Shown piece after piece: positions 771 through 45,721 of a stretch of 64,000 nt of DNA; position 1 is the stretch's first letter; every line of letters starts with the position of its first letter. A program made the translations under genes and the position numbers. Where the stretch lies: contig OZ020586.1 in the NCBI GenBank assembly GCA_963971535.1, positions 71,382,048 through 71,446,047 on the forward strand, written 5' to 3'. The DNA comes from Notolepis coatsorum (lineage: Eukaryota; Chordata; Actinopteri; Aulopiformes; Paralepididae). Below the pieces are notes generated by a model. It worked only from the letters and a program-made list of their open reading frames with translations. It had not been told where the DNA came from and ran no database searches.

Positions 771-960
771 AGGTTTCATTTGAACCCTTTCACTACCACA
801 CTACAGACGGTTAACCGTCTGTAGTGTGGTAGTGAAAGGGTTAACCTTCTGTATTGTCGCAGTGAATGGGTTAACCCTTTGGTAGTGTGGTAGTGAAAGG
901 GTTAACCTTTTGTATTGTCGCAGTTAAAGGGTTAACCCTTTGGTAGTGTGGTAGTGAAAG
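771..960. repeat. Palindrome plus 31-bp tandem repeat
   Basis: Positions 783-812 and 813-842 are perfect inverted copies with no spacer, making a 60-bp palindrome. Diverged direct copies of the same unit (GTAGTGTGGTAGTGAAAGGG core) follow up to 960. Confidence 0.85.
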
Positions 961-1160
961 GATCTCTGGAGCTTGTCTCAAAACCTCTGGACTCTGTCTA
1001 TCATTCTGCCCTCAGTTGTATTACTGGCGATATATATGATACCCACCACTGTGTCCTTTATGAAAAGGTTGGATGGCCTTCTCTGGTTGAAAGACATAAC
1101 TATCATTGGTATTCGTTTAATTTTAAAACCCTTATTGGTAAGCGTCCTCCTTTTTATTTT
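955..1160 (+). pseudogene. LINE reverse transcriptase C-terminal fragment, 5' part
   Basis: The plus-strand translation resembles the C-terminal region of fish jockey/CR1-type LINE ORF2 (LDSVYHSALSCITGD, then THHCVLYEKVGWPSL). A minus-strand LINE interrupts it near 1160, and the same element appears to resume at about 2235. It is a dead relic with no start codon or upstream domains. The LINE-type call is by recognition only. Confidence 0.55.
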
Positions 1161-1164
1161 AATT

Positions 1165-2235
1165 TTTTTTATCCTTTATTTATCCAGGAATGTCCCATTG
1201 AGATACAAGATCTCTTCTTCCAGGGAGTCCTGACCAACACAGCACACAACAAGTTTCAACATAAAACAGGGCATTAAACAAAAAACATACAATTCAAATA
1301 TAAATACAGAGGGTCATTTGTGCAGTGGCAAGGAGCATAATCACATCAACAATAGCATCAGGTAAAACAGTTACATGTTTCATAAAGGGCCAATCGTAGC
1401 ATACCTTTAAAAGCATTCACAGTAGGAAGTGCCTGTAGACAAAGTTTTACTTGCAACATATTCCATAAAAAGGGAGCATAGTGGGAGAATGCAGCTTTAC
1501 CAAGCTCTGACTGCATCAAAGGAACATTTAACAGCATCCCATTTGCTGCTCGTCTGGTATTAAAAAAGCAAGTATAAAAGGACAGAAGTCTGGAGATATA
1601 TAAGGGCAGCTTACCTAGCAATGACTTAAGGATAAAAATCAACATGTATGATTGTCTTCTTTGGTACAGAGAGGACCATCCTAATGACTGATACAAAGTG
1701 CAGTGGTGGGTGCGAGAGCCTGCACCCGTTACAAAACGTATGGCAGTATGGTACGCAGAATCCAGCTTTTTAAGCAGGGAGGAAGGAGCATGCATATAGA
1801 TCACATCGCCATAGTCTAATACAGGCAGAAAGGAACTCTGCACAATTCTCTTCCTGGCTTCAGACGGGAAACATTTCTTTAACCGGAAGAAAAAGCCCAG
1901 TTTAGGTCTAAGTTTTTTCAGTAGGTTCCCAATATGAACATCAAAGGCCATCTTTTCATCAATTTATAGGATGCTACTTTGTCAAGGCATGTCCCTTCCA
2001 GTGTCAGAATCGGGGGGACAGCTGTATTAGCTCGAGAGCGAGAGAAGGTCATGTACTTGGTCTTTTTTGCATTAAGGAATAAGGACCAGTCTTAGCCTTA
2101 GCAAGGAGTGTTGTAGTGTATTAAAAGCATCCTGTAGATTGCTCTATGGCCTGAGTTAAAGAGGAAGCCACTGTGTAACCAACTGTATCATCGGCGTATA
2201 AATGAAAACGTGCTGGGTTTATCCCATTTCCTAGT
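1165..2235 (-). mobile_element. LINE 3' fragment nested in another LINE
   Basis: A minus-strand frame at 1358-1951 (197 codons) reads as a LINE ORF2 C-terminus, with RKRIVQSSFLPVLDYGDVIY followed later by THHCTLYQSLGWSSLYQRR. It is a paralogue of the plus-strand LINE that it splits. The element's 3' end lies to the left, where 1170-1235 carries the complement of a conserved tail that recurs at 30134-30205. The copy is 5'-truncated and lacks the catalytic reverse transcriptase motifs. Confidence 0.6.
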
Positions 2236-2490
2236 TCATTTACATCACAACACTGTTTGAATGGACTCTTGGAACCTATTCTACACGTTCAAATGACTGT
2301 TTGGTTACTTAGGGTTCCTCGAGTTTGCTCTGAACTTGGAAAAACTGCTTTTTCCCTTGATGCTTCCAACACCTGGAATGCCCTCCAACTGACTCTGAAG
2401 CTGAATGTTCTTCCTTCTCTTGCTGCATTTAAAAGTATGATCTCCAACAACTGTGTGTCTTTGTATTCATTCATATATTTTGGTGGTTAA
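2235..2490 (+). pseudogene. LINE fragment, 3' part
   Basis: The plus-strand frame (SELGKTAFSLDASNTWNALQ) is the expected continuation of the relic at 955-1160, since the same arrangement follows GKLPLYISRLL in the minus-strand paralogue. It ends in a stop at 2488-2490. Confidence 0.5.
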
Positions 2491-2509
2491 GAGGCTGCAT
2501 TATGTACTA

Positions 2510-3525
<1,016 letters not shown>

Positions 3526-3545
3526 CGGTACACTTCGGTGTTTCT

Positions 3546-3714
3546 ATGTGTGTGCATGTGTATGTGTGCAAGGAGTCTTGTAAGAGATGTGTGTGTCTAT
3601 GTGTGTGTGTGTCTATGTGTATCTGTGTGTGTGTGTCTATGTGTGTGTGTGTGTGTCTATGTGTGTCTTACTCTGCAGGCGGTCTGGTAGGAGATGTGTG
3701 TGTATCTGTGTGTG

Positions 3715-3797
<83 letters not shown>

Positions 3798-3818
3798 GTG
3801 TGTGTGTGTCTATGTGTG

Positions 3819-3849
<31 letters not shown>

Positions 3850-3866
3850 CTATGTGTGTGTCTTAC
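3546..3866. repeat. (TG)n microsatellite with a copied exon border
   Basis: TG-rich array with a pure run at 3721-3792. It directly abuts the rims2 splice donor at 3865-3866. Bases 3661-3691 are a near-exact extra copy of the exon border at 3857-3887 with one inserted G. On the transcript the array reads as (CA)n just downstream of the exon. Confidence 0.9.
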
Positions 3867-4020
3867 TCTGCAGGCGTCTGGTAGGACTCTCTCCTTGTAG
3901 CAGGCGTCTCTGCACGAAGGGGGAGGGGTTGGGCAGCGGCAGGGAGGACAGGTCATGTGTCTGTAGCTTGTACCAGTGAGGCTGGTCGTCTAGCAGAGCC
4001 GTCTCCAACTCTATCAGGAT
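3867..4020 (-). CDS. rims2: rims2 exon: end of C2A domain and following linker
   Basis: RIM proteins are presynaptic active-zone scaffolds that tether vesicles and calcium channels. This 154-nt exon begins after an AG acceptor (ATAG) and ends at a GTAAGA donor. It encodes 51 residues plus one base: [20 protein letters not shown] closes the C2A fold, and [12 protein letters not shown] followed by GESPTRRLQ starts the variable linker. That order matches RIMS2 as I know it. It is entered in phase 0, consistent with the exon at 5584-5755. A (GU)n tract lies immediately upstream and a (CA)n tract immediately downstream in the transcript. The next exon must lie beyond the left edge, because I found none in 1-3866. 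Confidence 0.9.
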
Positions 4021-10794: not shown

Positions 10795-12230
10795 TGTTGT
10801 GAAGGGCCAGATTAAACCGAATATATATATTTATTTATATATATATATTTAATTGTATTTGTATATTCTCTAATATTCCCTGATATCCCTTGTATATTCC
10901 TTGTACAATATGCATTGAATATCCATTCTAGCCTACTGAACATCCCATAATAGTCTCCATTCTACTATTGGTCGAGACCTTGGTGCCAGGCTGCCATACC
11001 CCTCAGACCCAGTTCAAACGTACCGCTCCACATGTACGAACAAGTCCTAGTTCCGCGTAGGAATCTGACTACCGCACCACTAATCGGACTATTTGTTCAT
11101 AGTGCGTATATATACTGCGCTACTAAAGTAGGACTTCCTTTTCAGTCCAGTTTCTTACCCTCCAATAGAGTCACAGACGTAAAGCCTCCCCGCGACGCCA
11201 CGTGTGGGAGTAAGGCCAAGTTCGCCTACCATCGGTATTGAGACATCGTGTATATTAATATTTGAATAGTCATATTTGGCACTATATCGTCGAGTTGGAC
11301 GTAGTCTATTAAGCTAATAATAGTCTGTTAATATATAGTGCTTCGTGCGGTGAGAATACTACCGTAGTCAGTACCCCATCGTTTCGGGCAGAGAACTGGC
11401 TGCTTATCCAGGGTGGTTGACCCCACGTGAAGCTGCACCCGAGGAGCCCCAGAGCCGACGAGCGAGTGGACCTGTATACCGGATTATTCTACCGACGACA
11501 GCCCGCCTTCCCAGGCACGGATTATGCTTTGTATACTTTGATTATTCCATGGATAAAGACCCCCGACACTGCCGTGTGTTGGAACCCCCCCCCCCCTGGA
11601 GAGGACGCAAGGTGAGGAGACGCTCTGCAAGACGAGGTCGCTTCACGTCTCTCCTCCGTGGACCGGATGACGCCGGCCCACAAAGAGTCCACCTGCTTTC
11701 ATCTGTGGTCCAAGGATCGCCGGCGCATTGAACGGCACTACAGTGGGTTCACCTGGGATACCCTTGGCCGGATGAGGCAGCCGGATTCTACCCCCCCCCC
11801 CCTCCTACTCCTGTCGGCTTACAAGCGACCGGATTAACCCCCCCTAGTGTGTCCAGTATATAATCATTAAAGTATCATTGCTGTTATTCCTTAAACTATT
11901 CCAGGTCGTATATGTACCACCTGCGCCTTCAGAGATTGGACATTCTCTATTGATATACCGACGAATACTCTTGCCATAAAAGTGCATACTAATTTCCATT
12001 CATAAATGTGATTGATTTGATTAAGTGCTTGCTCTACACACCATCGCTGTGTAGAAATAAAGACCTATTTCTAATTCGTACATTTGTGTTGGATCCGTTT
12101 CATCTACGTGACAGTGTTCATCATAATATATTTATGCCGTGTACTGGGTGGCCGAATATTAAGTACAAAGGTAGTGGTAGTAAGTATCATATCTAGTAAT
12201 ACAGTCAGGGAATTGTACCCCTCAGTTACA
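10795..12230 (+). repeat. BEL/Pao 5' LTR
   Basis: It has TG...CA ends and an upstream GCTAA. A TATA-like GCGTATATATACTGCGC lies near 11103-11119, and AATAAAG near 12056 may serve as a poly(A) signal. Short frames inside it are duplicated in the 3' LTR and have no protein support. Confidence 0.95.
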
Positions 12231-12232
12231 AT

Positions 12233-12249
12233 TGGTCCTTCGAGCCGGA
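12233..12249 (+). promoter_or_regulatory. Primer binding site, tRNA-Tyr type
   Basis: TGGTCCTTCGAGCCGGA begins 2 nt after the LTR. Its reverse complement is the 3' end of vertebrate tRNA-Tyr (acceptor TCGAAGG, discriminator A, CCA) over 17 nt, as I know that tRNA. The first mismatch follows at 12250. Confidence 0.8.
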
Positions 12250-12298
12250 TGGTAATTAGTGTAATATTAATATAGTGTTATTAATATTGAAATGGCCT

Positions 12299-13408
12299 AT
12301 GATGAACACTCCACGAAACGATCCTCCTAACCAACGCCTGCAGCGCGAACGACGGCTCCCTCAGTACTTAGAGGCCTACGCTGTCAGTCAACAACCTAGT
12401 CTTCTACTAACAGTAAACGCGGTAAAACTAGAAAGTAAAAGTATGTCTAACCCCAACGCCCAGACTACCCCGACCATAGAGGCCCCTACGGGCTCTAATG
12501 TAACTGACCAAGTTCACGGTGGGGACCAGTGGGAACCAGACATGACTTCACACCCCGCCAGTACTGAAGAAGTAGTCCCTGATGAGTCCCGGGAGGAATA
12601 CAACGCTACCGAGAGAGAACTCGGCACGGAAGAAGACGGGGAGAGCACCGTGGAGATAGAGCTCCAAGGCTCCGCAAGGAGTACCCCGAGGGAAGGCTCC
12701 CCTATACAACCGCCTTCTCCCAGCGAGGCAGAGAGGACCCTACAGCAGGCCTTCCTCATCAGCCTGAACGCCGCTGCTGAACGCGACCGACTGCAGATCC
12801 AGCAGCGGAGCGAAGAAGAGCATATACGTCTAGAACTAAGACGCATTCAGAGAGAAGAGAATGTGGCCCGAGACCAAGCAGACAGCCAGCGAGCAGCTGC
12901 TGGTGCTCTACGGGACGCAGAGCGCGACAGACAGCAAGCGCAACTAATAGAACAGCTGATCAGACGGACAACACCCTCTCCCTCCGCCAGAGGCTCCAGG
13001 AACTCGTCTAGACACACCTCCAGGGCGGCATCCCCTAGCCGAGTAAACAACCCTGAACTTGACCAACAGACGAGGTCTATACCCCCCACAGACCACCTCC
13101 CCCCACCGGTCCAAGCGAGACCTAGCAACCGGGAAGGAGCAGCATATCCTGTGGAGAGGCTAAACCAGAGACTACAAGCACTGGATGACCTAACTGAAGA
13201 CGAAGAGGAAGAGGAGGAGAACCACGCCCGACGACAGCACAGTACTCTACCGGACCAGGAGGTCCGGTACAGCCCAGGCTATACTCCCGTGGAGCTGCGC
13301 TACAGACCCCCGACTCTATACACGGGTGAGCACGACGCACGACCCGCACCGAGGATCAGCACCTGGACAAGCGGGCCATGGTACACTGCCGGTACCAGCC
13401 CATACTAA
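12299..13408 (+). CDS. BEL/Pao ORF1: N-terminal Gag-like, coiled-coil protein
   Basis: The frame opens at 12275, but the paired ATGs at 12299 and 12302 follow a short hydrophobic leader and are more likely starts; about 370 codons. Residues 40-120 are acidic and Ser/Thr/Pro-rich. A long charged stretch rich in Glu, Arg and Gln (LRRIQREENVARDQADSQRA) looks like a coiled coil. An Arg/Ser segment follows, then an EDEEEEEEN run. No zinc knuckle or enzyme is present. It stops at TAA 13406-13408 in the same reading frame as the downstream polyprotein, with no other stop before that ATG at 13457. It is probably the N-terminal part of a Gag-Pol polyprotein cut by one stop, or a product separated by readthrough or reinitiation. 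Confidence 0.75.
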   Translation: MMNTPRNDPPNQRLQRERRLPQYLEAYAVSQQPSLLLTVNAVKLESKSMSNPNAQTTPTIEAPTGSNVTDQVHGGDQWEPDMTSHPASTEEVVPDESREEYNATERELGTEEDGESTVEIELQGSARSTPREGSPIQPPSPSEAERTLQQAFLISLNAAAERDRLQIQQRSEEEHIRLELRRIQREENVARDQADSQRAAAGALRDAERDRQQAQLIEQLIRRTTPSPSARGSRNSSRHTSRAASPSRVNNPELDQQTRSIPPTDHLPPPVQARPSNREGAAYPVERLNQRLQALDDLTEDEEEEEENHARRQHSTLPDQEVRYSPGYTPVELRYRPPTLYTGEHDARPAPRISTWTSGPWYTAGTSPY

Positions 13409-13456
13409 GGAGCGGGAGGAGACTCGCCTAGGAGGCCTCTCCCCCAACGCTCGCCG

Positions 13457-16400
13457 ATGTATCCACAGTCAGCGTCATACATTGGCACGCCTATGGTACC
13501 CGACTTCACCCAAGAGAACCGGGCCCAGTATACAGAACTCCGCATGTGTCTGGAGACCATGTTGGTGGATGTATTGGATGAACGCCATAAATACGCCATC
13601 CTACTGAAGCACTTAAAGGTACCCCGCGCACATAATATAGCGCTCGCCTACGCGACTTCCACCACCCCATACACAGCAGCGCTGGTAGCATTGGACCAGA
13701 GGTATGGGCGCATATGGGATTACGTGATCCAGGAGATCCGACACATCGACCGCTTACCCCCAGCAATAGACAATCGAGCACTGGACGACCTGTCCATCAG
13801 AGTGCAGTCCCTGGTAGGGATGTTGGGAGCGCAGAGAGAGAAGGGGAGGCATGAACTTTACGCCAACTCAAATGTGGAAAGGATCTTGGAGAAGCTGCCG
13901 CCCGCTCGACAGGAGCGTTTTAGGCGACAGAGGGACCACCGAGACCCGAATGGCCCCGAACCGAACCTCCTCGATCTAGCAGACTTCCTGGCGAGAGAAG
14001 TCAGCAGCCTACGGCTAGATACATTCGGACGGAGCACCCCTGGCTCCAGAGAAGGAACCAGACGACTAAATGATGGAAGAAGATCGGTGACTGTGATGCA
14101 CCAATCGGAGTCAGTACCGAGCAGCAGGAGCCACAGTACCCCCTCCAGAACGGAGAAGTGGAAGATAGTGTGCCCCTACTGTGAGAAAGAACACTGGCTA
14201 GCGCAATGTGACTCCTTCCCCAAGCTGAACGCGGAGGAAGCAAGTCAATGGATAAAGTCCAACAAGCGCTGTTTTCGCTGTGCGCGCTCACACATGGCAG
14301 CCGAATGCCGCTTAAAGAAAAGGTGCACCAAGTGCGATGGAGCCCATCTGGACATACTTCACGACAGTAACAGACGGCGCCCTTCACCCGCACCATCCAG
14401 CCGCAAAGCGAGCGTCATGTACATCGATCCCGCCAGCAGCAGTGGAGCCCGAGTACTCCTAAAAGTAGTGCGTGTGACACTAAGCTACCAGAATAAAGTC
14501 CTGGACACTTACGCCGTCCTCGATGACGGGTCAGAGAAGACCCTTCTGCTCGCCTCCGCTGCGGCCCAGCTAGGGCTGCGGGGAAGCGAAACCCAAATGA
14601 CAATTCGGACAATAAGACGAGATTTGAAGACGATAAAGGGCGAGAATGTCTCATTCTCTATCGCAGCAAGCGGCCAGCCTGAGCGACGGTACCAGATTAC
14701 AGACGCTTTCACCAGCCAAGAAATAGGACTGTCGCGGTACACATACCCCGTCGCCAAGCTGATGGAGAAATATGCACATCTGCGCAAGTTACCGATCCCG
14801 CTCATAGACAATGCTATGCCGACCCTGTTGATAGGCTCCGACCATGCAGACCTCATTGTCCCGATAGACCGGGTTCATACCGGACCCCGAGGCTGTCCTG
14901 CAGCAGTCGAGACCCGTTTGGGATGGACTCTCCAAGGCCCGCTCGCCAAATCTCTCAACCGAAGTACAGCCACTAGATGTCTCCACTCCCGAGTCACAGA
15001 GGGAGAAACCGCACTCCTGCAACACGTAGAGCGGCTATGGACCTTGGAACAAATGCCCTTTAAGAACGGAAAGAAAGACATTCGCTCTAAAGATGACATT
15101 TACGCCATTCACCTCCTCGAGACAGGGACCAAGAGAGTCCCGGTCAACGGCGTGTTGAGATACGCCACGCCACTCCTGCGGCGAGAAGGAATGCCTACTT
15201 TCCACGCCAAGACAGACGCCACAGAATGGTACCTGCTGAACACGGAGCGGCGCTTAGCCAAGAACCCCGCCCAAGAGAGTGTATACCGCGCTGAGATTGA
15301 GAAGCTCATCACAGCGGGACACGTCACAAAGATGGACATTAAAGAGGCTGACCAGACCACTGAATCGTGGTACGTGCCTCACCACAAGGTCCATCACAAC
15401 GGTAAAGACCGCATAGTATTTAACTGCAGCTACCAGATCGGATCCCAAAATCTGAATAAAGAGTTACTGCCCGGTCCCACACTCGGCCCTTCCCTACTCG
15501 GCGTTCTACTCCGCTTCCGCCAGGAAAAGGTGGCCATCAGCGGGGACATTAAAGGAATGTTCCTGCAGGTGAGATTAGTAGAGGCGGACAAGCCCCTGTT
15601 ACGGTTCCTATGGAGAGAGAAGCCAGGAGATGAGCACCCAGCCATCTACCAATGGGAAGTCCTCCCCTTCGGAACGACGTGCAGCCCCTGCTGTGCTACA
15701 TTTGCACTACAGAAACATGTAGCAGAGGACCCAGCAGCGGACGAAGAGGTCCGACACAGCGTAAAGAACAGCTTCTACGTAGACAACTGTCTACAAAGCC
15801 TTTCAACCCAGGAAGAAGCCGAGGCTCTCCTGATTAAACTCCGCGCCTCATTGATCAAAGGCGGCTTTGATCTCAGGCAGTGGGCCAGCAGCGATCCGCA
15901 AGTACTGCGCAGCCTCTCCTCCGAGGACAAGGCAGCCAGCAGAGAGACCTGGATGGCTACAATCCCGGGAGAAGCCCAGGAGATGACCCTGGGATTGGTG
16001 TGGCGATTCAAAACAGATTCGCTTCACTACAGACACAAGCCCCTGACTACAGAGCAGGGAAGGCCGGCGGCGGCGCCGACCACCAGACGGAGTGTGTACA
16101 CAACACTCGCCCGACAATATGACCCGCTAGGATGTATTCTACCGTACACCACCAGGGCAAAAATGATTGTACGAGCATTGTGGGACAAGGACCAGGGCTG
16201 GGACGACCCCATTCCCGCACACCTTGCATCCACCTGGAGAGAGTGGGAGATGGAGCTCCACTCACTCCCAGGCGTTAATATGCGCCGAAGCTACTTCCCA
16301 CCCACGGTGAGGCCAGAGACATGTAAAATGGACTTACACGTCTTCAGTGACGCCTCAGAGGTCGCATACGGATCAGTAGCCTACTTGCGGGCCCAAGAGA

Positions 16401-18385
16401 AGGGGGGAGAGATCTACACAGCATTTGTCCTCGCCCGCTCGAGAATAGCCCCACGCAAGCAACAATCTATCCCACGTCTAGAACTCTGCGCAGCCCTAGC
16501 CGGAGCGCACCTAGCCACGCTCATCCAACGTGAGCTCACCATACCGGTGTCTAGAACAATCCTGTGGTCAGACTCCACGACGGTACTCGCCTGGATCAAA
16601 TCGGACTCATGCAAGTACAAAGTCTTCGTGGGAGTCAGAGTCACCGAGATTCAAGACTTAACCGAAGAGTTAACCGGAGAAACAGAGTGGCGCTACGTTG
16701 ATACAAAACAGAACCCAGCTGACGTCATCACCCGGGGGATGCCCCTGGATGACCTCACCCGTCGCAATGTCTACAGTGACGGCCCCGCATTCCTAAGACT
16801 CCCGGAAGGACAGTGGCCCATGCCTATCCCGAGGGAAGCAAGTCCAGAGGAGGTGGAAAATAAGAAGTCTGTGTTCTGTGGATTGAGCACCGTAGCCTCC
16901 ACCGACCCTAACATAGACGATTGCACGTCCATAGAGAGTGCACAACAAAGAACATTCCTGCGGTACCACCCGGAGTGCAAGTCCCCCGCTGATATGTCAG
17001 CAGCTAACTACGAGGAAGCAGAATTGCTTCTACTGCAGCGAGCCCAGAGAGACTCGTTCCCCGATGAATTGGCCTGTCTACAGGGAGGAAAGCCCGTCCC
17101 ATCCGACAGCAGATTAATTCATCTGGCCCCCGAGAGCGACGCTCATACCCTCATCAGAGTGGGTGGTCGCCTACGCAGAGCCCCCAATCTACCGGATGAC
17201 ATTAAATACCCGATCGTATTGAACAGCCGACACAAGGTCACAGAGCTGATTATAAAGAAATACGATGAGGATGTACATCACGCAGGAGCAGAAAGAGTCT
17301 TCGCGGAAATCAGACGTCGTTACTGGATCCTACAAGGAAGAGAGGCGGTACGACGCTTCCAGCGAACATGTCTAGACTGCCGCAAGTGGCGCGCGCAGCC
17401 CAGCATACCAAGGATGGCTGACCTTCCTCCATGTCGCCTCCGAATCGGTGACAAGCCATTCCACTCAACGGGTATGGACTGCTTTGGCCCGCTGCACATA
17501 AAGAAAGGAAGAGGAACCGAGAAGCGGTGGGGTATTGTATTCAAATGCATGACCACCAGAGCGATACACATCGAGCTTCTCCCGACCATGAGCACAGACT
17601 CATTCCTTATGGCCTTCCGTAGATTCACATCACGGAAAGGAAGACCGTCTACCCTATTGTCCGATCATGGGACAAACTTCAAAGGCGGCGAAAGAGAGCT
17701 GAGAGAGAGCTTCCAAGCTATGGGCCCAGAACTTAAGACCCTCCTCGCTCCAGCACAGGTTGATTTCCAATTCAACCCCCCAAACGCACCCCACTTCGGT
17801 GGCACTTGGGAACGAGAAGTGCGCTCCATAAAGACAGCCCTGTACGCAGTACTTGGGGCCCAGACTGTGGCGGAAGAAGTCCTAATGACAGTCCTCACGG
17901 AGATTGAGGGAGTACTTAACTCGAAGCCCCTCGGATATGTCTCCAGTGATGTGGCGGATATCGACCCAGTTACCCCCAACACACTCCTGATGGGGCGGCT
18001 AGATCCTGCATTACCCCAGACAATGTACCGGCCTGAAGAGGCGAACGGCCGACGAATGTGGAGGTACAGCCAAGTATTAGCCGACAAGTTTTGGCGCAGT
18101 TTCCTACTGCACTACCTACCGTCTCTACAGACCCGCCAGAAGTGGGTAAAGGAGAGAGACAATTTGACAGAAGGAACAGTCGTCATGATTATTGATCAAT
18201 CACTGCCCAGAGCTATGTGGCCGGCCGGCCGCGTAAGCAAAGTGATCACCGGTGCCGACGGCAAGGTCCGAGCAGCTGAAGTGCTCGTCCAGGGTCGCAC
18301 TTACACCCGTCCCGTGGCGAGGCTCATAGAACTGCCTCGACTCCCAGACACAATCGATGATGACCATGACCCTATAACCCTATGA
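13457..18385 (+). CDS. BEL/Pao Gag-Pol polyprotein (1,642 codons)
   Basis: It encodes the retrotransposon's core and replication enzymes. Residues 10-190 resemble the BEL Gag region (DUF1759). Cys/His knuckles lie near 238-300 (CPYCEKEHWLAQC, CFRCARSHMAAEC, CTKC). The aspartic protease has VLDDGSEKTLL near 353-363, where DDGS is the BEL-type active-site variant. Reverse transcriptase spans about 640-860 with YVDN at about 774. RNase H follows from about 955 (HVFSDASEVAYG). The integrase has an HHCC zinc region near 1273-1310 and catalytic Asp1341, Asp1403 and Glu1452. A C-terminal DUF5641-like segment (WRYSQVLADKFWRSFLLHYL) closes it. No frameshift or internal stop is seen. The ATG at 13457 is only the first Met after the ORF1 stop and may not be the natural start. 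Confidence 0.92.
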   Translation: MYPQSASYIGTPMVPDFTQENRAQYTELRMCLETMLVDVLDERHKYAILLKHLKVPRAHNIALAYATSTTPYTAALVALDQRYGRIWDYVIQEIRHIDRLPPAIDNRALDDLSIRVQSLVGMLGAQREKGRHELYANSNVERILEKLPPARQERFRRQRDHRDPNGPEPNLLDLADFLAREVSSLRLDTFGRSTPGSREGTRRLNDGRRSVTVMHQSESVPSSRSHSTPSRTEKWKIVCPYCEKEHWLAQCDSFPKLNAEEASQWIKSNKRCFRCARSHMAAECRLKKRCTKCDGAHLDILHDSNRRRPSPAPSSRKASVMYIDPASSSGARVLLKVVRVTLSYQNKVLDTYAVLDDGSEKTLLLASAAAQLGLRGSETQMTIRTIRRDLKTIKGENVSFSIAASGQPERRYQITDAFTSQEIGLSRYTYPVAKLMEKYAHLRKLPIPLIDNAMPTLLIGSDHADLIVPIDRVHTGPRGCPAAVETRLGWTLQGPLAKSLNRSTATRCLHSRVTEGETALLQHVERLWTLEQMPFKNGKKDIRSKDDIYAIHLLETGTKRVPVNGVLRYATPLLRREGMPTFHAKTDATEWYLLNTERRLAKNPAQESVYRAEIEKLITAGHVTKMDIKEADQTTESWYVPHHKVHHNGKDRIVFNCSYQIGSQNLNKELLPGPTLGPSLLGVLLRFRQEKVAISGDIKGMFLQVRLVEADKPLLRFLWREKPGDEHPAIYQWEVLPFGTTCSPCCATFALQKHVAEDPAADEEVRHSVKNSFYVDNCLQSLSTQEEAEALLIKLRASLIKGGFDLRQWASSDPQVLRSLSSEDKAASRETWMATIPGEAQEMTLGLVWRFKTDSLHYRHKPLTTEQGRPAAAPTTRRSVYTTLARQYDPLGCILPYTTRAKMIVRALWDKDQGWDDPIPAHLASTWREWEMELHSLPGVNMRRSYFPPTVRPETCKMDLHVFSDASEVAYGSVAYLRAQEKGGEIYTAFVLARSRIAPRKQQSIPRLELCAALAGAHLATLIQRELTIPVSRTILWSDSTTVLAWIKSDSCKYKVFVGVRVTEIQDLTEELTGETEWRYVDTKQNPADVITRGMPLDDLTRRNVYSDGPAFLRLPEGQWPMPIPREASPEEVENKKSVFCGLSTVASTDPNIDDCTSIESAQQRTFLRYHPECKSPADMSAANYEEAELLLLQRAQRDSFPDELACLQGGKPVPSDSRLIHLAPESDAHTLIRVGGRLRRAPNLPDDIKYPIVLNSRHKVTELIIKKYDEDVHHAGAERVFAEIRRRYWILQGREAVRRFQRTCLDCRKWRAQPSIPRMADLPPCRLRIGDKPFHSTGMDCFGPLHIKKGRGTEKRWGIVFKCMTTRAIHIELLPTMSTDSFLMAFRRFTSRKGRPSTLLSDHGTNFKGGERELRESFQAMGPELKTLLAPAQVDFQFNPPNAPHFGGTWEREVRSIKTALYAVLGAQTVAEEVLMTVLTEIEGVLNSKPLGYVSSDVADIDPVTPNTLLMGRLDPALPQTMYRPEEANGRRMWRYSQVLADKFWRSFLLHYLPSLQTRQKWVKERDNLTEGTVVMIIDQSLPRAMWPAGRVSKVITGADGKVRAAEVLVQGRTYTRPVARLIELPRLPDTIDDDHDPITL

Positions 18386-18493
18386 CTTTGTGAAGTTGAC
18401 TGACCCCTACAGCAAACCCTTATGTGTAAATAGACAACGCGATTAATCTGTCTCTGTTTAACTGATTAGGTCTGGGACCAATCAGGGGGTGGC
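18386..18493 (+). promoter_or_regulatory. BEL/Pao 3' untranslated strip with polypurine-like tract
   Basis: A 108-bp strip between the polyprotein stop and the 3' LTR. It ends in a purine-rich AATCAGGGGGTGGC just before the LTR's TGTTGTG, the expected site for plus-strand DNA priming. Confidence 0.6.
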
Positions 18494-19930
18494 TGTTGTG
18501 AAGGGCCAGATTAAACCGAATATATATATTTATTTATATATATATATTTAATTGTATTTGTATATTCTCTAATATTCCCTGATATCCCTTGTATATTCCT
18601 TGTACAATATGCATTGAATATCCATTCTAGCCTACTGAACATCCCATAATAGTCTCCATTCTACTATTGGTCGAGACCTTGGTGCCAGGCTGCCATACCC
18701 CTCAGACCCAGTTCAAACGTACCGCTCCACATGTACGAACAAGTCCTAGTTCCGCGTAGGAATCTGACTACCGCACCACTAATGGGACTATTTGTTCATA
18801 GTGCGTATATATACTGCGCTACTAAAGTAGGACTTCCTTTTCAGTCCAGTTTCTTACCCTCCAATAGAGTCACAGACGTAAAGCCTCCCCGCGACGCCAC
18901 GTGTGGGAGTAAGGCCAAGTTCGCCTACCATCGGTATTGAGACATCGTGTATATTAATATTTGAATAGTCATATTTGGCACTATATCGTCGAGTTGGACG
19001 TAGTCTATTAAGCTAATAATAGTCTGTTAATATATAGTGCTTCGTGCGGTGAGAATACTACCGTAGTCAGTACCCCATCGTTTCGGGCAGAGAACTGGCT
19101 GCTTATCCAGGGTGGTTGACCCCACGTGAAGCTGCACCCGAGGAGCCCCAGAGCCGACGAGCGAGTGGACCTGTATACCGGATTATTCTACCGACGACAG
19201 CCCGCCTTCCCAGGCACGGATTATGCTTTGTATACTTTGATTATTCCATGGATAAAGACCCCCGACACTGCCGTGTGTTGGAACCACCCCCCCCCCTGGA
19301 GAGGACGCAAGGTGAGGAGACGCTCTGCAAGACGAGGTCGCTTCACGTCTCTCCTCCGTGGACCGGATGACGCCGGCCCACAAAGAGTCCACCTGCTTTC
19401 ATCTGTTGTCCAAGGATCGCCGGCGCATTGAACGGCACTACAGTGGGTTCACCTGGGATACCCTTGGCCGGATGAGGCAGCCGGATTCTACCCCCCCCCC
19501 CCTCCTACTCCTGTCGGCTTACAAGCGACCGGATTAACCCCCCCTAGTGTGTCCAGTATATAATCATTAAAGTATCATTGCTGTTATTCCTTAAACTATT
19601 CCAGGTCGTATATGTACCACCTGCGCCTTCAGAGATTGGACATTCTCTATTGATATACCGACGAATACTCTTGCCATAAAAGTGCATACTAATTTCCATT
19701 CATAAATGTGATTGATTTGATTAAGTGCTTGCTCTACACACCATCGCTGTGTAGAAATAAAGACCTATTTCTAATTCGTACATTTGTGTTGGATCCGTTT
19801 CATCTACGTGACAGTGTTCATCATAATATATTTATGCCGTGTACTGGGTGGCCGAATATTAAGTACAAAGGTAGTGGTAGTAAGTATCATATCTAGTAAT
19901 ACAGTCAGGGAATTGTACCCCTCAGTTACA
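18494..19930 (+). repeat. BEL/Pao 3' LTR
   Basis: Near-identical to the 5' LTR. The differences I see are G for C at about 18784, a substitution and one extra base in the C-run near 19286, and T for G near 19407. GCTAA follows at 19931-19935. Confidence 0.95.
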
Positions 19931-32594: not shown

Positions 32595-35500
32595 GTGAAA
32601 ATAAAAAGAGCCGTGACTCTAGAGCCCTTCAGTGAACATTTCGTATGGGGCAGGTTACAGAGTGTGAATAACATCTCAGCTGGTAGTGCTGTCATTCTGG
32701 AGCCCAGCTGTGTGAAGTCAAGACCGGGATCAGTCCTGATTGGGAAGACAGTGGCCCTGCTGAGGAATGATGGATGGCTGCCAATGAAGGTGATAAATCC
32801 CTCTGGTAGATCAGTGACCCTCAGATGAAATGCCAAGCTTGCTGACGTTTATCCATGCATGGCCTTGGAGGATTTTGACTGCTCTGAGGTGGATGACGAT
32901 TCACCACCCCTTTTGCAGCAACAGGTGCAGAGGGCAGATGATAACCACCGTGATGAATCGAGTCTGACTGATGATACATCCACCTTATCGGACAGATGTG
33001 ACAGAGAAGAGGAACCTGGTGGATGTGATGGCAGTCCTGATTCAGTCTTACATGGTTTAGGGTTGTCTGACATAGATCTTGATTCCTGTGATGTGTCCTC
33101 TTCGGGTAAAGAAAAACTTGTGCATCTGATAGCTCAGTACCAGTCTATATTTTCCAGGCATAAGTTAGACTGTGGAAGGGCTACAGGCTGTCTTCACCGG
33201 ATTCGACTCAGTGATGAGAAACCCTTTCGCTTGCCATACAGACGAGTTCCACCTAATCAGTATGAGAAGCTCAGGCTGGCGTTGAGTGAGATGGAAGAAC
33301 AAGAGATCATAAGGAAGTAAAATAGTGAGTTTGCTTCACCTTTGGTCATTGTTTGGAAGAAGTCGGGAGACCTGAGACTCTGTAATGACTTCCGATGGAT
33401 TAACGCACGCACCATCAAAGACACCCATCCTCTTCCACACCAGGCTGATGCTCTAGCAGCATTGGGTGGCAACGCCTACTTCTCCACCATGGACCTCACC
33501 TCCGGCTACTACAATGTTGAGATGCACGAGGATGACCGGAAGTATACAGCCTTTACATCGCCATTCGGACTATACGAATACAACCGCATGCCACAGGGTC
33601 TGTGCAACAGCCCTGCCACCTTCATGCGGATGATGCTTAACATCTTTGGGGATCAGAACTTCCTCAGTCTACTGTGCTATCTGGATGATGTCCTGGTGTT
33701 CGCGCCTACAGAAGACCTGGCCTTGGAGCGCCTGGAAATGGTCTTCGAACGATTTAAGGCTCACAACATTAAATTGGCTCCGAAGAAATGTCATTTCTTG
33801 CAGAGCTCTGTGAGGTTCCTGGGACATGTCGTTAGTTCTGATGGCATCGCTACGGACTCTGACAAGGTAAAAGCCATCACTGCGCTGACAGAAGCTGACC
33901 TCATGGAAGAATGTACAGAGATTCCATCACAGCGGAAGATCCGGTCATTTCTGGGAATGGTGGTATACTACCAGCAATTCATTGAGGGCTGTTCCGCCAT
34001 AGCCAAACCGCTGTTTGGACTTACGACTGGGAACAAGGCTCCTCGTTGGAAAGGGAAGAAACGCCGGCCTCCTCGACGGACAATGACTGCGGCAGATTGG
34101 ACAGATGAGTGCCGGGATGCTTTCCATCAGCTGAAGCAGGCCTTACTGGACCGGGTCGTTTTGGCCCATCCTGATTTCAGTGAATCTTTCCTGCTCTCAG
34201 TGGATGCCTCCAGTAATGGCCTTGGTGCAGTTTTGTCACAGGTGCCTGCGGGTGGGACAACAGCAAGACCAATTGCTTTCGCAAGCAAGTCGCTCACCTA
34301 TACACAGTCGAAGTATCCTGCGCATAGACTGGAATTTTTTGCTATGAAATGGGCAGTCTGTGACAAGTTCCACCATTGGTTGAGGGGACACCAGTTCACA
34401 GTATGGACTGACAACAACCCGTTAACGTACATCTTGTCCAAGGCAAAACTGGATGCGTGTGAACAGAGATGGGTTGCTAAGCTAGCCCCATACCAGTTTG
34501 ACATCAAATACATCCCTGGTCCCAAAAATATTGTTGCAGATGCCCTGAGCAGAGAGCCTTTCATCCGGCCTAGTGCACTCCATCGTCTGACGAGGGTTGC
34601 GTATAAGGCATTGCTGGGTGAAGCTGACGCTGTGCGCACAGAACAGGTTCAGGATGTGTTCCGTTGGTCTAATCATCCATTCGACGTGACCTCCGATGTT
34701 GAGCCTGCGGTGGCATGCCAGTGTGTGACTGTTTCCCAACCTGGTGCCCTTTCGAGACAGGAAGTAGCAGCTGTTTTTGAGTCACACAAGCTGCAAAACA
34801 GTGATATGGGGCCCCATGCGCTGCTGCTGCCACAGCTTCCTCAGATAGTCATGCCATCAGAAGAGATTGGTGGAGAGGTGCTGTCACATGATCAACTCAT
34901 GAATAAGCAAAAAGATGACCATGTGTTAAACAAAGTGATTTCCTTTGTGGAGAGAGGACAAAGACCTTCAAGAAGAGAGCGTGCTCAGGAGTCTGTTGAT
35001 GTCCTTCGGTCACTGAGGGGCTGGGATAAGCTAACAATGAGGAGGGGTGTGCTGTATCGCCTGTCAAGGAACACAGTTACAAAGAAGAAGATGTATCTGT
35101 ATGTGGTCCCCGCTTCGCTGCAAGCCATGGTGCTGAAAGGTGTCCATGACGAGGCTGGTCACCAGGGCCAACAGCGGATTTTGTACCTTACCAGACAGCG
35201 GTTCTACTGGCAAGGCCTGGAGAAAGATGTGAGGGAGTATGTGAGGTGCTGTCGGCGATGCGTGATGAGCAAGACTCCTGAGCCTGAAGCCAGAGCACCA
35301 TTGGAGAACATCATAACGACTGAGCCCCTTGAACTTGTGAGCATAGACTTCTGGTGTGCTGAGGATTCTGCAAACAAGTCCTTGGATGTGCTTGTCGCTA
35401 CGGACCACTTCACCAAGATGGCACACGCCTTTTTGTGCCCAAATCAAACTGCTAAGGCTGTGGCTCATCAGTTGTGGCATAACTATTTCTGCGTGTATGG

Positions 35501-36404
35501 TTTTCCGAGACGCATTCACTCCGATAGGGGAGCCAATTTTGAGAGTGCTTTGATCACTGAGCTCTTGAATGTTGCTGGTGTTCAAAAGTCCCACACCACA
35601 CCTTATCATCCAATGGGCAATGGATCATGTGAGAGGATGAATAGGACTCTGGGAAACATGATAAGGGCTCTGCCTCCAAAGGCAAAGCACAGATGGCCGC
35701 AGGCACTCAAGTCTCTCACATTCGCCTACAATTGCACTATCCATGAGACCACCGGATATGCACCATTCTTGCTAATGTTTGGCAGAATACCGAGACTGCC
35801 TGTTGACATGGTCTTCAGTACGGTTCTGGACAACCCTGAGGTTGTGAACTATGATAAGTACATCCAGCTCTTGCGGAAGGATCTGAAGGAAGCTATGGGA
35901 ATAGCACAAGCCACGGCAGTCAAGCAGTTGAGGAGGCATGGTGACATATACAACCGAAAAGTTCGGGGAGCACCTGTCGAAGTTGGTGACCGGGTATTGT
36001 TGGCCAACAAGGGAGAGCGTGGTAAACGAAAGCTTGCTGATCGGTGGGAGAACACCATCTACCATGTTGTTGGGATGAATGTTGACAGTCACACTTTCAA
36101 GATTCAGCATGGCTCCACTGGCCAAGTGAAAACAGTGCATAGGAATCTGATAACACCAGTCAACTTCCTCCCGATCTCAGATGCTGCTTCTGAGGAGGAG
36201 ATGGACATGTCTGACATGTCTGAGTCTGAAGATCTCAGTGAGCGGCGTAACCATGAAGATGAGGATGGAGTTTCATCGGTTTCTGCTGAGTACAGAACCA
36301 GTGTTAACCAGTGTTATCCAAAGCGACTTACAAGTTCTGTACGACAAGCCATCAGGAAGGGCACAACTCTATCAGCTGAGCAACAATGTTCATCAAAGTG
36401 TTGA
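32595..36404 (+). pseudogene. Ty3/gypsy retrotransposon pol, 5'-truncated, two stops
   Basis: One reading frame runs 32595-36404, broken only by TGA at 32826-32828 and TAA at 33318-33320. The first piece is the region between protease and reverse transcriptase (EPFSEHFVWGRL). From 33342 (1,020 codons) it has reverse transcriptase (RLCNDFRWINARTI, YLDD near residue 112), RNase H (SVDASSNGLGAVLS near 285), an HHCC zinc region near 601-645, integrase Asp669/Asp728/Glu764 (DD35E) and a GPY/F-like module. Gag, the protease core and a 5' LTR are missing. The position within rims2 intron 2 is antisense to the host gene. Confidence 0.9.
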
Positions 36405-39009: not shown

Positions 39010-40377
39010 CTCTGTGTCTGTCTCTAACCCTGTGTCTGTCTCTAACCCCGTGTCTGTCTCTAACCCTGTGTCTGTCTCTAACCCTGTGTCTGTCTCTAAC
39101 CCTGTGTCTGTCTCTAACCCTGTGTCTGTCTCTAACCCCGTGTCTGTCTCTAACCCTGTGTCTGTCTCTAACCCTGTGTCTGTCTCTAACCCCGTGTCTG
39201 TCTCTAACCCTGTGTCTGTCTCTAACCCTGTGTCTGTCTCTAACCCTGTGTCTGTCTCTAACCCTGTGTCTGTCTCTAACCCTGTGTCTGTCTGTCTCTA
39301 ACCCTGTGTCTGTCTCTAACCCTGTGTCTGTCTCTAACCCTGTGTCTGTCTCTAACCCTGTGTCTGTCTCTAACCCTGTGTCTGTCTCTAACCCTGTGTC
39401 TGTCTCTAACCCTGTGTCTGTCTCTAACCCCGTGTCTGTCTCTAACCCCGTGTCTGTCTCTAACCCTGTGTCTGTCTCTAACCCTGTGTCTGTCTCTAAC
39501 CCGTGTCTGTCTCTAACCCCGTGTCTGTCTCTAACCCTGTGTCTGTCTCTAACCCTGTGTCTGTCTCTAACCCTGTGTCTGTCTCTAACCCTGTGTCTGT
39601 CTCTAACCCTGTGTCTGTCTCTAACCCCGTGTCTGTCTCTAACCCCGTGTCTGTCTCTAACCCCGTGTCTGTCTCTAACCCCGTGTCTGTCTCTAACTCT
39701 GTGTCTGTCTCTAACCCTGTGTCTGTCTCTAACCCCGTGTCTGTCTCTAACCCCGTGTCTGTCTCTAACCCCGTGTCTGTCTCTAACCCTGTGTCTGTCT
39801 CTAACCCTGTGTCTGTCTCTAACCCCGTGTCTGTCTCTAACCCTGTGTCTGTCTCTAACCCTATGTCTGTCTCTAACCCCGTGTCTGTCTCTAACTCTGT
39901 GTCTGTCTCTAACCCTGTGTCTGTCTCTAACCTGTGTCTGTCTCTAACCCTGTGTCTGTCTCTAACCCTGTGTCTGTCTCTAACCCCGTGTCTGTCTCTA
40001 ACCCTGTGTCTGTCTCTAACCCCGTGTCTGTCTCTAACCCTGTGTCTGTCTCTAACCCTGTGTCTGTCTCTAACCCCGTGTCTGTCTCTAACCCCGTGTC
40101 TGTCTCTAACCCCGTGTCTGTCTCTAACCCTGTGTCTGTCTCTAACCCTGTGTCTGTCTCTAACCCTGTGTCTGTCTCTAACCCTGTGTCTGTCTCTAAC
40201 CCCGTGTCTGTCTCTAACCCCGTGTCTGTCTCTAACCCTGTGTCTGTCTCTAACCCCTGTGTCTGTCTCTAACCCCGTGTCTGTCTCTAACCCTGTGTCT
40301 GTCTCTAACCCCTGTGTCTGTCTCTAACCCCGTGTCTGTCTCTAACCCCGTGTCTGTCTCTAACCCCGTGTCTGTCC
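39010..40377. repeat. Minisatellite, 18-bp unit, about 76 copies
   Basis: TGTGTCTGTCTCTAACCC units with frequent T/C variation and occasional 1-bp or 4-bp length changes. The long frames across it are repeat translations. The TAACCC inside the unit is not telomeric because the spacing is 18 bp. Confidence 0.97.
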
Positions 40378-40849
40378 CATTCATGATGTCCCATGAAAGT
40401 CATCACGGTGATGGATGGAGACTCTGCACCTGCCTGCTAATCACCACACCACCCTACAAGATACCAGGATCTCCATGCATCAGCTTCAGATCTTCGTTTC
40501 TATGTTAACCCTATTCCCGTTGTGTTTTCGTGTATCCACCCGTTCCGTGAATTTTTTTTTACGTCTCATGTTTTCGTGTTTTTTTTTCGTGTTTTTTCGT
40601 GTGTGCCTGCCTTCGTTCTGCTGTGAAGACTTATTTTTGTTTTTCTCCTCTGTTGTCTTCACAGCTTCACTCCCGTGCTCCCCACCGGTCACGGGCATCC
40701 ACCCGCCAGGCTCAAGACGCACACACACACACACACACACACACACCGCATTGATTTTTGCAACGTATTATTAAATGCCCTACGGGGTTGAACATTCTCC
40801 TGTCTCCCGTGTTGTGCATTTGAGCCTACCGGTTACCAGTTCCTAACAG
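40378..40849. other. Intronic sequence without recognised genes
   Basis: T-rich sequence at 40550-40640 and a short (CA)n at 40718-40746. No exon or complete element was identified. Confidence 0.5.
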
Positions 40850-41114
40850 TTATATAATGTTAGCACACATTATATATGGTGTGGTATATAACGTTAGCAC
40901 ACATTATCTATGGTGTGGTATATATGGGTCATTCCAGAATTGGAGGACAATTAGGCATCAATACTTTTGAAAAATGGACCCTTTATTTGATCATTTTCTG
41001 TTATGTATTTCATAAAAACAGGTATTAAACCATCAAATAATTGGATTCGTCCAGCTCAGGCATCAAAGGTACACTTTTTATGATACGTTTTATTTGTTGT
41101 GTGCTATGTTTGCC

Positions 41115-41482
41115 GCAACCCTGTTACAAATACTCAGGAAGCTGAAAAAAGTACATTTAAAAATATTTTCAATAAATCCTTTACAATTAAGTAAAGAAAG
41201 TCACATGCTTACTGAATACTGATTTAATTTCAGATAAGACTTCACTTATATTAATTTAAGCAACTTTGAAATCGATCTTGCCCAACTTTTCAATAGTCAC
41301 ATCTTTCTTTTTACTAATTTCAGTATTTAATTTCAAATATTTGTTCAAATACATTATGCATTTAATCATGCAAACTATTACATTTACAATAGGTTAAACC
41401 ACTGTGAGCTGAGAAAATCATGTATGATTATTTGAATAAAAATGATATGGCAACAGCCTTCAAATTAGAGTAACAGGGTTGC
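41115..41482. promoter_or_regulatory. Subterminal 13-bp motifs, left side
   Basis: Two copies of GTAACAGGGTTGC: inverted at 41115-41127 and direct at 41470-41482. They are possible transposase-binding sites. Confidence 0.6.
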
Positions 41483-41886
41483 GCTAAGTAACAGTTACTT
41501 TACTTTTGATTGTAGATCATGACATATGTGACAAATACATACTCAGGACCACAGGAATGTTGTTTAATAATATTATTTTATTTTGGGACTCAACAGGATG
41601 AGTAGGAATGATACAAAATAAACATGTCAACAAAACCACAAACTGGATCAGAATAGGCCAACAACCTGGCATTCTTGCTGCATTCCTCACCTGAATAAGC
41701 ATATCAACAATAGTAATGAACTGATATATTGGGAATAATACAAAATAAACATGTCAACAAAACCACAAACTGGATCAGAACAGGCCAACAACCTGGCATT
41801 CTTGCTGCATTCCTCACCTGAATGAGCATATCAAAAATAGTAATGAACTGATCAATCTTTTAGAAAGCTGATTTTATGTTCAGATT

Positions 41887-44655
41887 TCATTTTTCGTGGC
41901 TGGCCAGAGTATCCCATACCTCTCTTGCTATAGCCATGTGGCGCAAGGTAACATTCTCTAGGGGAGGAATGAGGGTCAGCATATCCTCTGAGGGATACCA
42001 GTGGAGATCATCCCTCAATGGCCAGAAAAAAACGGTTTGCCCCCACTCTATGCATACATTTCACTTGGCAGTGAGTCTCATTCACCTCCTGGATGATCCC
42101 AGGGTAGATGGTGTGGTCGTACAGCAGGGCACACCATTTCCCCACAACGCCTGGACTGAGCCACTGCACTTCTTCACATACACATGTGCTGTGTATGGGG
42201 TCTTCTGTGTGGTCATCTGTGGGATTAAAGCTGAAGATTTTTGGCAATCACACTCCAGATTCCCTGTTGCAGAACATATGCAGCTGACATCGTGGTAGAG
42301 CATTTTCCCAGGTGAAAGAGTGACCACCTGGTGGAGCCTCATAGTGGACGGTACGGCTGGAAGGTCAGCTGGCATTTCTTTCACTGCATTATCCACAGCT
42401 TGCTCCTGAATGTAAAACAATTTCACTTTTGATTGTTCCTTACTCTGAGCTTGGTACAATGGTACAGGGACAGTGCCGTAGGGATATCAACTCCTTGGGC
42501 GACAAGCCTGTCGGCCCTCCTCTGCAATGTGCCACCCACACCATCTCGGACACCTTTTCCATGGCTGGCTTCAAAGTAGTTCCATGATCGTCTTGTAAAC
42601 CCCCTTTTGAAGATTTCAGTACAAAACAGGTAAAAATTGCCACGCTGCTTGTACTGTGTGCAGGGTCCGTCGCTAAGAAAATGGATGGTTTTCACATCTG
42701 GGAGTTTCTCTCTGATTTCCCTCAGGATGGGCTGCAGGTGTTGCCATATGGCAGGTGGTCCCTTCAGTCTGGATGCTGATACAGTGCAGAAGGAGGTAGG
42801 GGCAGATGCCTCCCCCACATAGTAAACCCCAGTGTGCAAAGTGGCCTGTTGGTGTGATGCACCAAAATGGACAGCCTGTACTTCAGTGCTGTACTTGCAG
42901 CTGTAGTTCTCTGAGAAGTCGATATGGACTGCACATTCATTTGCAGGGAGGTCCAGCTTCAGGGCCCGTGAGAAAGCATATTGCTGCCTGATGTTGTAGA
43001 GATGGCGCCTGAACTTCTGGAGCAAAATCTGAAACGTTTCCACCAGCTCTTCTTGGGAGTATTCAAATTCTTTTTTCAAAGTGACCTTTGAGGCTGCTCC
43101 AGGATAATTTTTGTGCTCTTTGTCCACAGTGGCCCACTGAAGGTAGGAGACAGATCGGTGGCTCTGTAGTGGCTTGTGAGTGTATAGGTATTGTTGCTGC
43201 AGTTCTCACATTCCCCATACATACATTGCTTGCTTGTGGTGTCACACATGATGGCTTGTGTCAGGCTCTCCAAGTCACGTACTTCCTCAGCTACAGCTGT
43301 GTGGAACAACAGGGTTCTCCTTAGGGTTGTGACCGAGATGTGTCGAATCAACTTGTTGACTTTGGATCTTGGAGATGGATTGTTCTTTTTCAAACATTGG
43401 AGTCGCTTTCTGTATTTTGCTGCCCTCTGTTCAGCTTTCCTCAACGTATCCTGTACTTTCTGGAACTCCCTGTTTAACTTTGCTTTGGTAGCCCTCAATG
43501 TTCTTCTCCCAGCATCACGTTGCCTAAAAGAAAGATATAAACATAAATGCATTGTCACATAATCATTTCACTTGCATGGACTTTTTCCCAATTGTAGTTT
43601 TGCACCAAACAAAGTAATTACCAGGATTAGATGGGCCTAATAATTACTGAGTACATATATCAAGTAAATTAAATGGTAAATGGTGCATTTACTGTATAGC
43701 ACTTTTATCCAAAGCACTTTACAATGTTTTGTAAAAGATTTAATGATATCTTTTTAAATTAAATTACCTTGAAGTCCCAGTTTGAGAGCTGGTATTCTGG
43801 CCTGACTGGAACGTCTGGACTGACTGGGGCATCAGGGCTGACTGGAGGGGTGTTCAATCCTTCAAGTACACTTTTCCTGGCATCACTCCTCTTATGAGCC
43901 TTCCATTTTTTACATTGGGCACGCTGCTCTCTCATACTGCAGTCTTTTAGCCTTTTCTTCTTCCCTGTTTCTACATCTTTTCTCCACTTATCTTTCTCTT
44001 TTTCTAAGTACTGCTGTCTCCTCTGTTCATCAGCATCACGCCTGGCACGGTAGCGCCTCTGATTTTCAGCAGTGCTCAATGGTGTGGAAGAACTCTGTAG
44101 AAATCAATTACATTTCAAACAAAATGTCTATTAACCTTTGATAAAATAATGATTTGGGTAACACCTTACATTAAGTCTGCATTCACTACTATTAGGCACT
44201 AATAACATAGTTGTTATTAGTACACGTAAGTACAGTTAGTTACAGATGGAACAAGACATCTAATAATTACAAAGAAATGTGTGTAATTACACATGTTCAT
44301 GTTCTACTTCTGTAAAGACATACTGCTGAACTGAAGGAGATGCAACCCTGTTACTGTACTGCAACCCTGTTACTCTAATTATAGTAACAGGGTTGCAAGT
44401 AACAGGGTTGCAAATCAATGCTAATGTTAGCTTTTACTTCAGGAAAAGATGCTAGCTGAGGAATGTAAGTTACTGTCAATGTCGAGGTTAAACATAGTTA
44501 TATGAATAAAGAAAGATACATTTGAAATAAATGTGTCTTATTGTGATAATATGAGTAACAGGGTTGTGTTGGCTAGAGTGACACAGTCAATCAAGGCTGA
44601 AAAGATTAGAAAAATATAAAAAGTAGAAGAGAGGACTTACCTTTGGTCTAGCCAT
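41887..44655 (-). pseudogene. DDE-like transposase gene of the transposon, frameshifted
   Basis: Exon 1 is 44641-44655 (MARPK) with a GTAAGT donor. Exon 2 is 43768-44094, basic and Arg/Lys-rich (SSSTPLSTAENQRRYRARRD). A third coding block runs from about 43523 to a stop at 41887-41889. That block has a coiled-coil-like basic stretch, a Cys cluster (CDTTSKQCMYGECENC), then AVHIDFSENYSCKY, IHFLSDGPCTQYKQRGNFYL and YFEASHGKGVRDGVGG. The two Asp and later Glu/His-rich motifs look like a DDE nuclease core, which is inference. The reading frame shifts near 43145, at 42452-42467 (8-bp duplication), in an A/T run near 42238 and in a T run near 42030. The exon 2 to 3 junction is also out of phase. It is not functional as it stands. 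Confidence 0.75.
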
Positions 44656-44759
44656 TTTGTTAGCAGATGGCTTGATGATGTCATTTCCTGTGTCATGTGA
44701 CTCACTGTTTTTATTTTTTCCCCTCTATCAGGTGAAATAGGTTTCGGTAACAGGGTTGC
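44342..44759. promoter_or_regulatory. Cluster of six 13-bp motifs near the transposase start
   Basis: GTAACAGGGTTGC occurs inverted at 44342-44354 and 44361-44373, and direct at 44384-44396, 44399-44411, 44555-44567 (last base T) and 44747-44759. The cluster surrounds exon 1 of the transposase pseudogene, so it may combine binding and promoter roles. Confidence 0.6.
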
Positions 44760-45234
44760 ACACATGTTGTGGGACACAACTTCAGTGCATAATTACTATT
44801 ATTTAAAATATGTTGATGAATAAACAAATTGTTTTTATAATTACAAGAGACATATATCAACAATCTAATACCAAAAAAGTATATTTAAAACATATATTTA
44901 AATGTTATATTGGACATGCAAGTTGGTCATCAAGAAGGTGGGACAAGAGAAAAGTGCCATTTTAGGGGGTGTTCAAGAGCTATTTGGTATTTTAAATAAT
45001 ATTTTGGAACCACTTTTTCCACAACCATATTTACATTTAGTCTCAGGACAAGTACAATTTACATAACAAGTGCATGTTTTAGTATTTTGTGCATGGATTG
45101 TTTGGAATTTCATGGGTGGGACTGAAAATGTCCTCCAATTCTGGAATGTCCCATATAACGTTAGCGTACATTATCTATGGTGTGGTATACGTTAGCGTAC
45201 ATTATCTATGGTGTGGTATATAACGTTAGCATAC

Positions 45235-45354
45235 CTTGAGCCCCAGCAGTGCCCCTGTATCCGCGGGAACAGTCCCGTCCTTCATTCTCTTGTTGAGAAG
45301 GATCCGACCAATCAGACGCTCCCCATCTTTGGACGGTTGCCAGGTTACCGGGTG
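45235..45354 (-). CDS. rims2: rims2 exon: start of PDZ domain
   Basis: This 120-nt exon has a CTACACAG acceptor and a CTCAAG/GTATGC donor. It encodes 40 residues: HPVTWQPSKDGERLIGRILL, then NKRMKDGTVPADTGALLGLK. This is the N-terminal part of the RIM PDZ domain including the LGLK carboxylate-binding loop, and NKR(L/M)KDG(S/T)VP is the RIMS2 version. Both ends are phase 0. The donor is immediately followed by the 34-bp tandem repeat and then, 81 bp away, by the 4.2-kb transposon. Confidence 0.95.
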
Positions 45355-45721
45355 CTGTGTAGGTCAGGGTGATAAATACACAAAGGTCTCTTCACAGTAA
45401 CAACAATAATAACATCCCATAATATGGACAGAACAACATGCCAGAGCATGGGTTAGAGTCTGTTCACTTTCCATTCGATTAATTCAAAGTGTAAATGGGA
45501 AAGGTCAATTGATTTGCTACTTGATAGCACATTTATTTTCAATAATTCCTCAAGAGGAAAACCTCTGCTGCTCAAATATTTTCAATATTAGAATTTTGGA
45601 GAAAGTATTCCATAGATTGTTCCATAGATAGTTTCTTGCTCAACAATATTTAAAGGTGCCAGCAGACAATAAACAGAAGCAGCTAATTCAGGTTTGTAAT
45701 TAGTGAGAGCAAATCTTTTTA

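Follow-up and report, generated by a model that had tools for sequence, protein, structure and literature searches.

A recently spread DNA transposon of Notolepis coatsorum, probably Sola-like, with a conserved internal four-site array

To which kind of cut-and-paste transposon does the element studied here belong, and how would it move? It lies in a 64,000-bp stretch of the fish Notolepis coatsorum (contig OZ020586.1, positions 71,382,048 to 71,446,047; hereafter the window), and the original prediction had described it as a DNA transposon with clean 24-bp inverted termini, a TATA flank duplication and a multi-exon gene for a DDE-like transposase, perhaps of Sola or a similar superfamily. We consider it fairly likely to be a recently spread non-autonomous cut-and-paste transposon, for which the best-fitting known kind would be the Sola superfamily, perhaps Sola2.

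The ends of the element and its insertion site are located as follows (window positions throughout).

40926..45152: whole element, GGGTCATT...AATGTCCC, 4227 bp (sequence and copy comparison)
40926..40949, plus strand: left terminal inverted repeat, 24 bp (inverted-repeat listing, site search)
45129..45152, minus strand: right terminal inverted repeat, 24 bp, differing from its left counterpart at one position (inverted-repeat listing, site search)
40922..40925: left target-site duplication ATAT (sequence; register fixed from other copies)
45153..45156: right target-site duplication ATAT (sequence; register fixed from other copies)

The 24-bp termini are the longest inverted repeat listed for 40500-45600, and no other site in the window lies within two mismatches of the element's end sequence. 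The predicted termini were thus located, but are not perfectly clean, and the true ends lie one base further inward; a flank duplication is likewise present, but reads ATAT rather than TATA once the other copies set the register, and no TATA is fixed among them. A short tandem repeat of the host, with units of 31-34 bp, surrounds the element (40851-40924 and 45158-45220) and offers a built-in empty-site comparison, the adjoining units reading GGTGTGGTATATAACG, an insertion-free site with a single ATAT. A scan of 40500-45600 against Rfam gave no match, and a literature text search with five strings from the element returned, among the matches listed, only the 10-mer GGGTCATTCC.

Further copies were sought in the species' own genome (3.42 Gb). 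With the left 201 bp as query, all 40 scored candidates, the window included, are 98-100% identical (90 were found in a first look). The 39 others were fetched, and both ends fall within the fetched stretch in 24 of the 40 copies and outside it in 16. The ends GGG...CCC are kept in 18 of these 24 and eroded in six. Two of the copies, L015 and L016, lie ~277 kb apart on contig C8 with identical flanks, probably as a duplicated segment carrying the element; L016 was left out, and 17 copies remain for the duplication count. An exact 4-bp duplication flanks 14 of the 17 (the exceptions being L022, L031 and L039), while 2000 rounds of flank shuffling gave 2.1 on average and never more than 7. Five of the duplications read ATAT, and the others are ATGT, TTAT, TTGT, AACT, TTTT, AGCT, AGGT, CTAT and AAAA; the preceding base is T in 13/17 copies and the following one A in 14/17, so that the copy collection and duplication consensus proposed with the original prediction yield a target of roughly T-ANNT-A. 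Identity to the majority sequence is 97.8-99.8% over 14 aligned copies (99.74% for the window copy), suggesting a recent burst. An internally deleted copy of 1192 bp (L035) has its own duplication, CTAT.

The gene and the remaining repeat within the element are listed next, with L058, a relative in the same genome, providing the exon model.

44641..44655, minus strand: predicted exon 1 (MARPK) (sequence; exon model in L058)
43768..44094, minus strand: predicted exon 2, encoding the basic N-terminal region and differing from L017 and L058 close to its end (L058 model)
41887..43523, minus strand: predicted exon 3, broken, with ~170 codons gone near 43275 and at least four frame changes (tblastn of P0007, open reading frames)
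42462..43151, minus strand: predicted RNase-H-type catalytic core stretch with D, D, D (and E) motifs (open reading frame motifs, alignments, tblastn, model)
41605..41852: 127-bp tandem duplication, two copies (repeat listing, Tandem Repeats Finder)

The motifs HIDFSENY, FLSDGPCTQYK and ASHGKGVRDGVGG, on which the original prediction relied, all lie in a single minus-strand open reading frame at 42426-43205. A multi-exon gene is supported by L058, in which a model of three predicted exons is open throughout, its length being 832-838 codons according to which donor is taken for exon 2, whereas the window gene itself is broken; L058 for its part has eroded ends. Relative to P0007, the exon 3 protein of L058 and the reference for the window gene, tblastn shows that residues 98-267 are missing and that the frame shifts near 43152, 42462, 42245 and 42030. 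Neither the window nor 18 of the 39 fetched copies (some of which are cut short in the retrieved stretch) contain the sequence of a probe placed within the missing part; the other 21 carry it at least partly. A frame break after ...SHYRATD is common to the window, L017, L022 and L009, of which L009 retains the probe stretch. Judged by its sequence, this common gap and common frame break make the window copy a member of a non-autonomous subfamily, presumably mobilised in trans by intact relatives.

Relatives of the protein are numerous in the genome. A search of the genome with P0001 gave at least 150 matches at 100 to ~42% identity (147 of 950 candidates scored), and a search with P0010 gave 81, including an additional group at 32-36%. 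The families are labelled A (window), B (L049), C (L053), D (L056), E (L055), F (L057) and G (L065-L068), with B and F each ~50-52% identical to A along the part that aligns; the transposase lineage is thus diverse and partly young in its own genome, with at least seven groups. The family C locus L053 is bounded at 196-3912 (gene orientation) by a 62-nt perfect inverted repeat, representing either the family C termini or a nested element, and not shown for L054. A 4650-codon open frame near C21:37869911 was rejected, an assembly gap having been read as open.

Searches of Pfam, NCBIfam, PHROGs and PDB sequences with the scanned proteins gave only weak, chance-like matches, and no relative was found in IMG/VR, GTDB genomes, or phage and plasmid records. 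These results, together with targets nearer ANNT than AWWT, would suit an undescribed RNase-H-fold transposon superfamily, resembling Sola only in duplication length and third aspartate. We regard this as unlikely: we know of no Pfam model for Sola, so a missing Pfam match separates neither reading, and those published Sola features that can be checked here, from excerpts of the descriptions, are either present or uncontradicted.

The fold of the transposase was examined by structure prediction. A first full-length model was poor (predicted local distance difference test score, pLDDT, 54), and a model of the core was made afterwards. Its best fold matches are integrases, and Foldseek against a viral library returned phage RNase H-like proteins and a bovine leukaemia virus integrase fragment; the transposase core thus probably adopts an RNase-H-type fold. 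The residues D387, D470 and D512 (P0007 numbering), with 41 residues between the latter two, are conserved and positioned in the predicted core as in RNase-H transposases. E503 is invariant across the seven rows of alignment A1, which would suit a classical DDE transposase with E503 as third acid, from another known short-duplication superfamily such as Ginger, the more so as integrases head the fold matches and Ginger is characterized by a Gypsy-integrase-like protein in the excerpt of PMC10741241. This we hold to be very improbable, since the Pfam matches include no integrase model, family G has R or P at the E503 position, and the predicted model places E503 in a loop after strand 5, and D512 in the last core helix. 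The catalytic acids are therefore most likely the three aspartates, with the third proposed from the model and from natural variation. The original prediction is partly supported: the predicted core, the fold matches and the missing Pfam match speak for a cut-and-paste element whose transposase is of the RNase-H type, but the label DDE-like should probably be DDD. A transposase lacking a Pfam match is hereby set on the RNase-H map, with a candidate third catalytic residue and a target consensus.

The element also contains repeated internal sites.

44342..44411: inverted array of four GTAACAGGGTTGC sites, the first pair on the minus and the second on the plus strand, within predicted intron 1 (site search, family comparison, genome count)
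41115..41127, minus strand: further GTAACAGGGTTGC site, 189 bp from the left end (site search)
41470..41482, plus strand: further GTAACAGGGTTGC site (site search)
44555..44567, plus strand: further site, one mismatch to GTAACAGGGTTGC (site search)
44747..44759, plus strand: further GTAACAGGGTTGC site, ~400 bp from the right end (site search)

The sequence TAACAGGG occurs eight times in the window element, against an expectation of 0.2, and none of 300 first-order Markov sequences had more than two. The array starts are spaced 15/20/19 in L058, and both L049 and L057 have 15/20/20; outside family A, only a single B locus and a single F locus among those fetched have the array upstream. Other B loci have two separate TAACAGGG sites (L048) or one each (L050-L052), and the stretches retrieved for families C (L053, L054), D and E and for L059 showed none. 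The DNA surrounding the array aligns weakly between families. Matches to TAACAGGG at window 54.6-54.8 kb were set aside as part of a minisatellite.

Across the genome, the central inverted pair CCCTGTTA-12-TAACAGGG occurs at 163 places and the same pattern reversed at none. Among 50 listed of these places, 29 have a transposase match from the P0001 search no more than 5 kb away, the stretches this close to a match making up <0.1% of the contigs concerned. Centres of the A type are near a match at 21 of 23 listed places (neighbours 88-100% identical to P0001), those of the B type at 7 of 19 (54-61%) and those of the F type at 1 of 3 (59%). From this count and this nearness, the array is a real, repeated part of these elements, and it offers a lead on their self-recognition or self-regulation. 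A fourth centre type, with none of its five listed places (G000:C1:171695201, C1:208662223, C6:119073931, C6:119713112 and C7:51515617) near such a match, may mark another, unseen family or non-autonomous copies.

The array is putatively bound by a protein, which need not be the transposase. Its position within predicted intron 1, roughly 740-810 bp inside the right end, and a core 8-mer identical in all groups having the array, as a shared host factor would require, are consistent with a host-protein site that would serve the element's gene as a promoter or enhancer module; this is quite possible, though we lean slightly the other way. The extension 3' of TAACAGGG is each family's own and alike at all or most sites (TTGC at 8/8 sites in L058 and 7/8 in the window for family A, CTGA at 3/4 array sites in L049, TGGACA at 4/4 in L057), as if the partner protein changed with the element, and family A has further sites near both ends, arguing against a host protein. 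The array may have originated partly by local duplication, its plus-strand pair forming a perfect 15-bp tandem repeat (Tandem Repeats Finder).

For a Sola-like transposon, the following mechanism is envisaged. The longer relatives carry a gene of several predicted exons for a transposase of ~830 residues, whose core has a predicted RNase-H fold. This enzyme would probably bind the 24-bp ends, and perhaps the internal TAACAGGG sites too, excise the element, and join it to a T-ANNT-A target through cuts four bases apart, giving the 4-bp duplication. It is distinctly unlikely that a separate unnamed RNase-H-fold DDD lineage (with seven or more groups in this genome) is involved whose transposase recognises both its ends and the inverted four-site array in its own first intron; if so, a single module could be used for assembly on the DNA as well as for control of the gene.

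Elsewhere in the window, direct repeats of ~1437 bp, 99.8% identical (10795-12230 and 18494-19930), enclose open reading frames of 382 and 1658 codons, and 10795-19930 looks like a young long terminal repeat retroelement. A 1027-codon open frame occupies 33321-36401, its start reading, by its motif, like a Gypsy-type reverse transcriptase. The window is also very rich in tandem repeats (88 Tandem Repeats Finder rows), for example an 18-bp unit in ~76 copies at 39012-40376.

Among known systems, Tc1/mariner elements (Mos1) differ in their 2-bp TA duplication, compared with 4 bp of varied sequence here, and no Pfam match points to them. The piggyBac and Kolobok superfamilies share a 4-bp duplication, but theirs is TTAA in the excerpt of PMC9587614, found in 0/14 cases here. 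The same excerpt gives hAT, P, MuDR, Kolobok and Dada a C/DxxH motif between the second D and the last acid, whereas the present transposases have ExxH (families A-F) or R/PxxH (G). No integrase model that would point to the Gypsy-integrase-like protein of Ginger stands among the Pfam matches, and the catalytic cores of retroviral integrase and IS21 IstA show no sequence match, with the third acid here probably D. For Sola, the excerpt of PMC10741241 describes a DDD triad, 4-bp duplications, a size of mostly 2-9 kb and terminal inverted repeats of 11-1124 bp; the duplication, termini and length of the present element all lie within these ranges, and its acids are probably DDD as well. Sola consensus sequences are listed for fish genomes in the excerpt of PMC6404401. 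The element differs from Sola in its internal four-site array and in its target, Sola2 duplications being AT-rich, AWWT or similar, in the excerpt of PMC3627910, while 5 of the 14 duplications here fit AWWT and 9 fit ANNT. The suggestion of 'Sola and similar' accordingly stands as the best available fit, judged by duplication length, probable acids, terminal-repeat length and size, and the element is probably a new family of a known superfamily, with an unusual conserved internal array.
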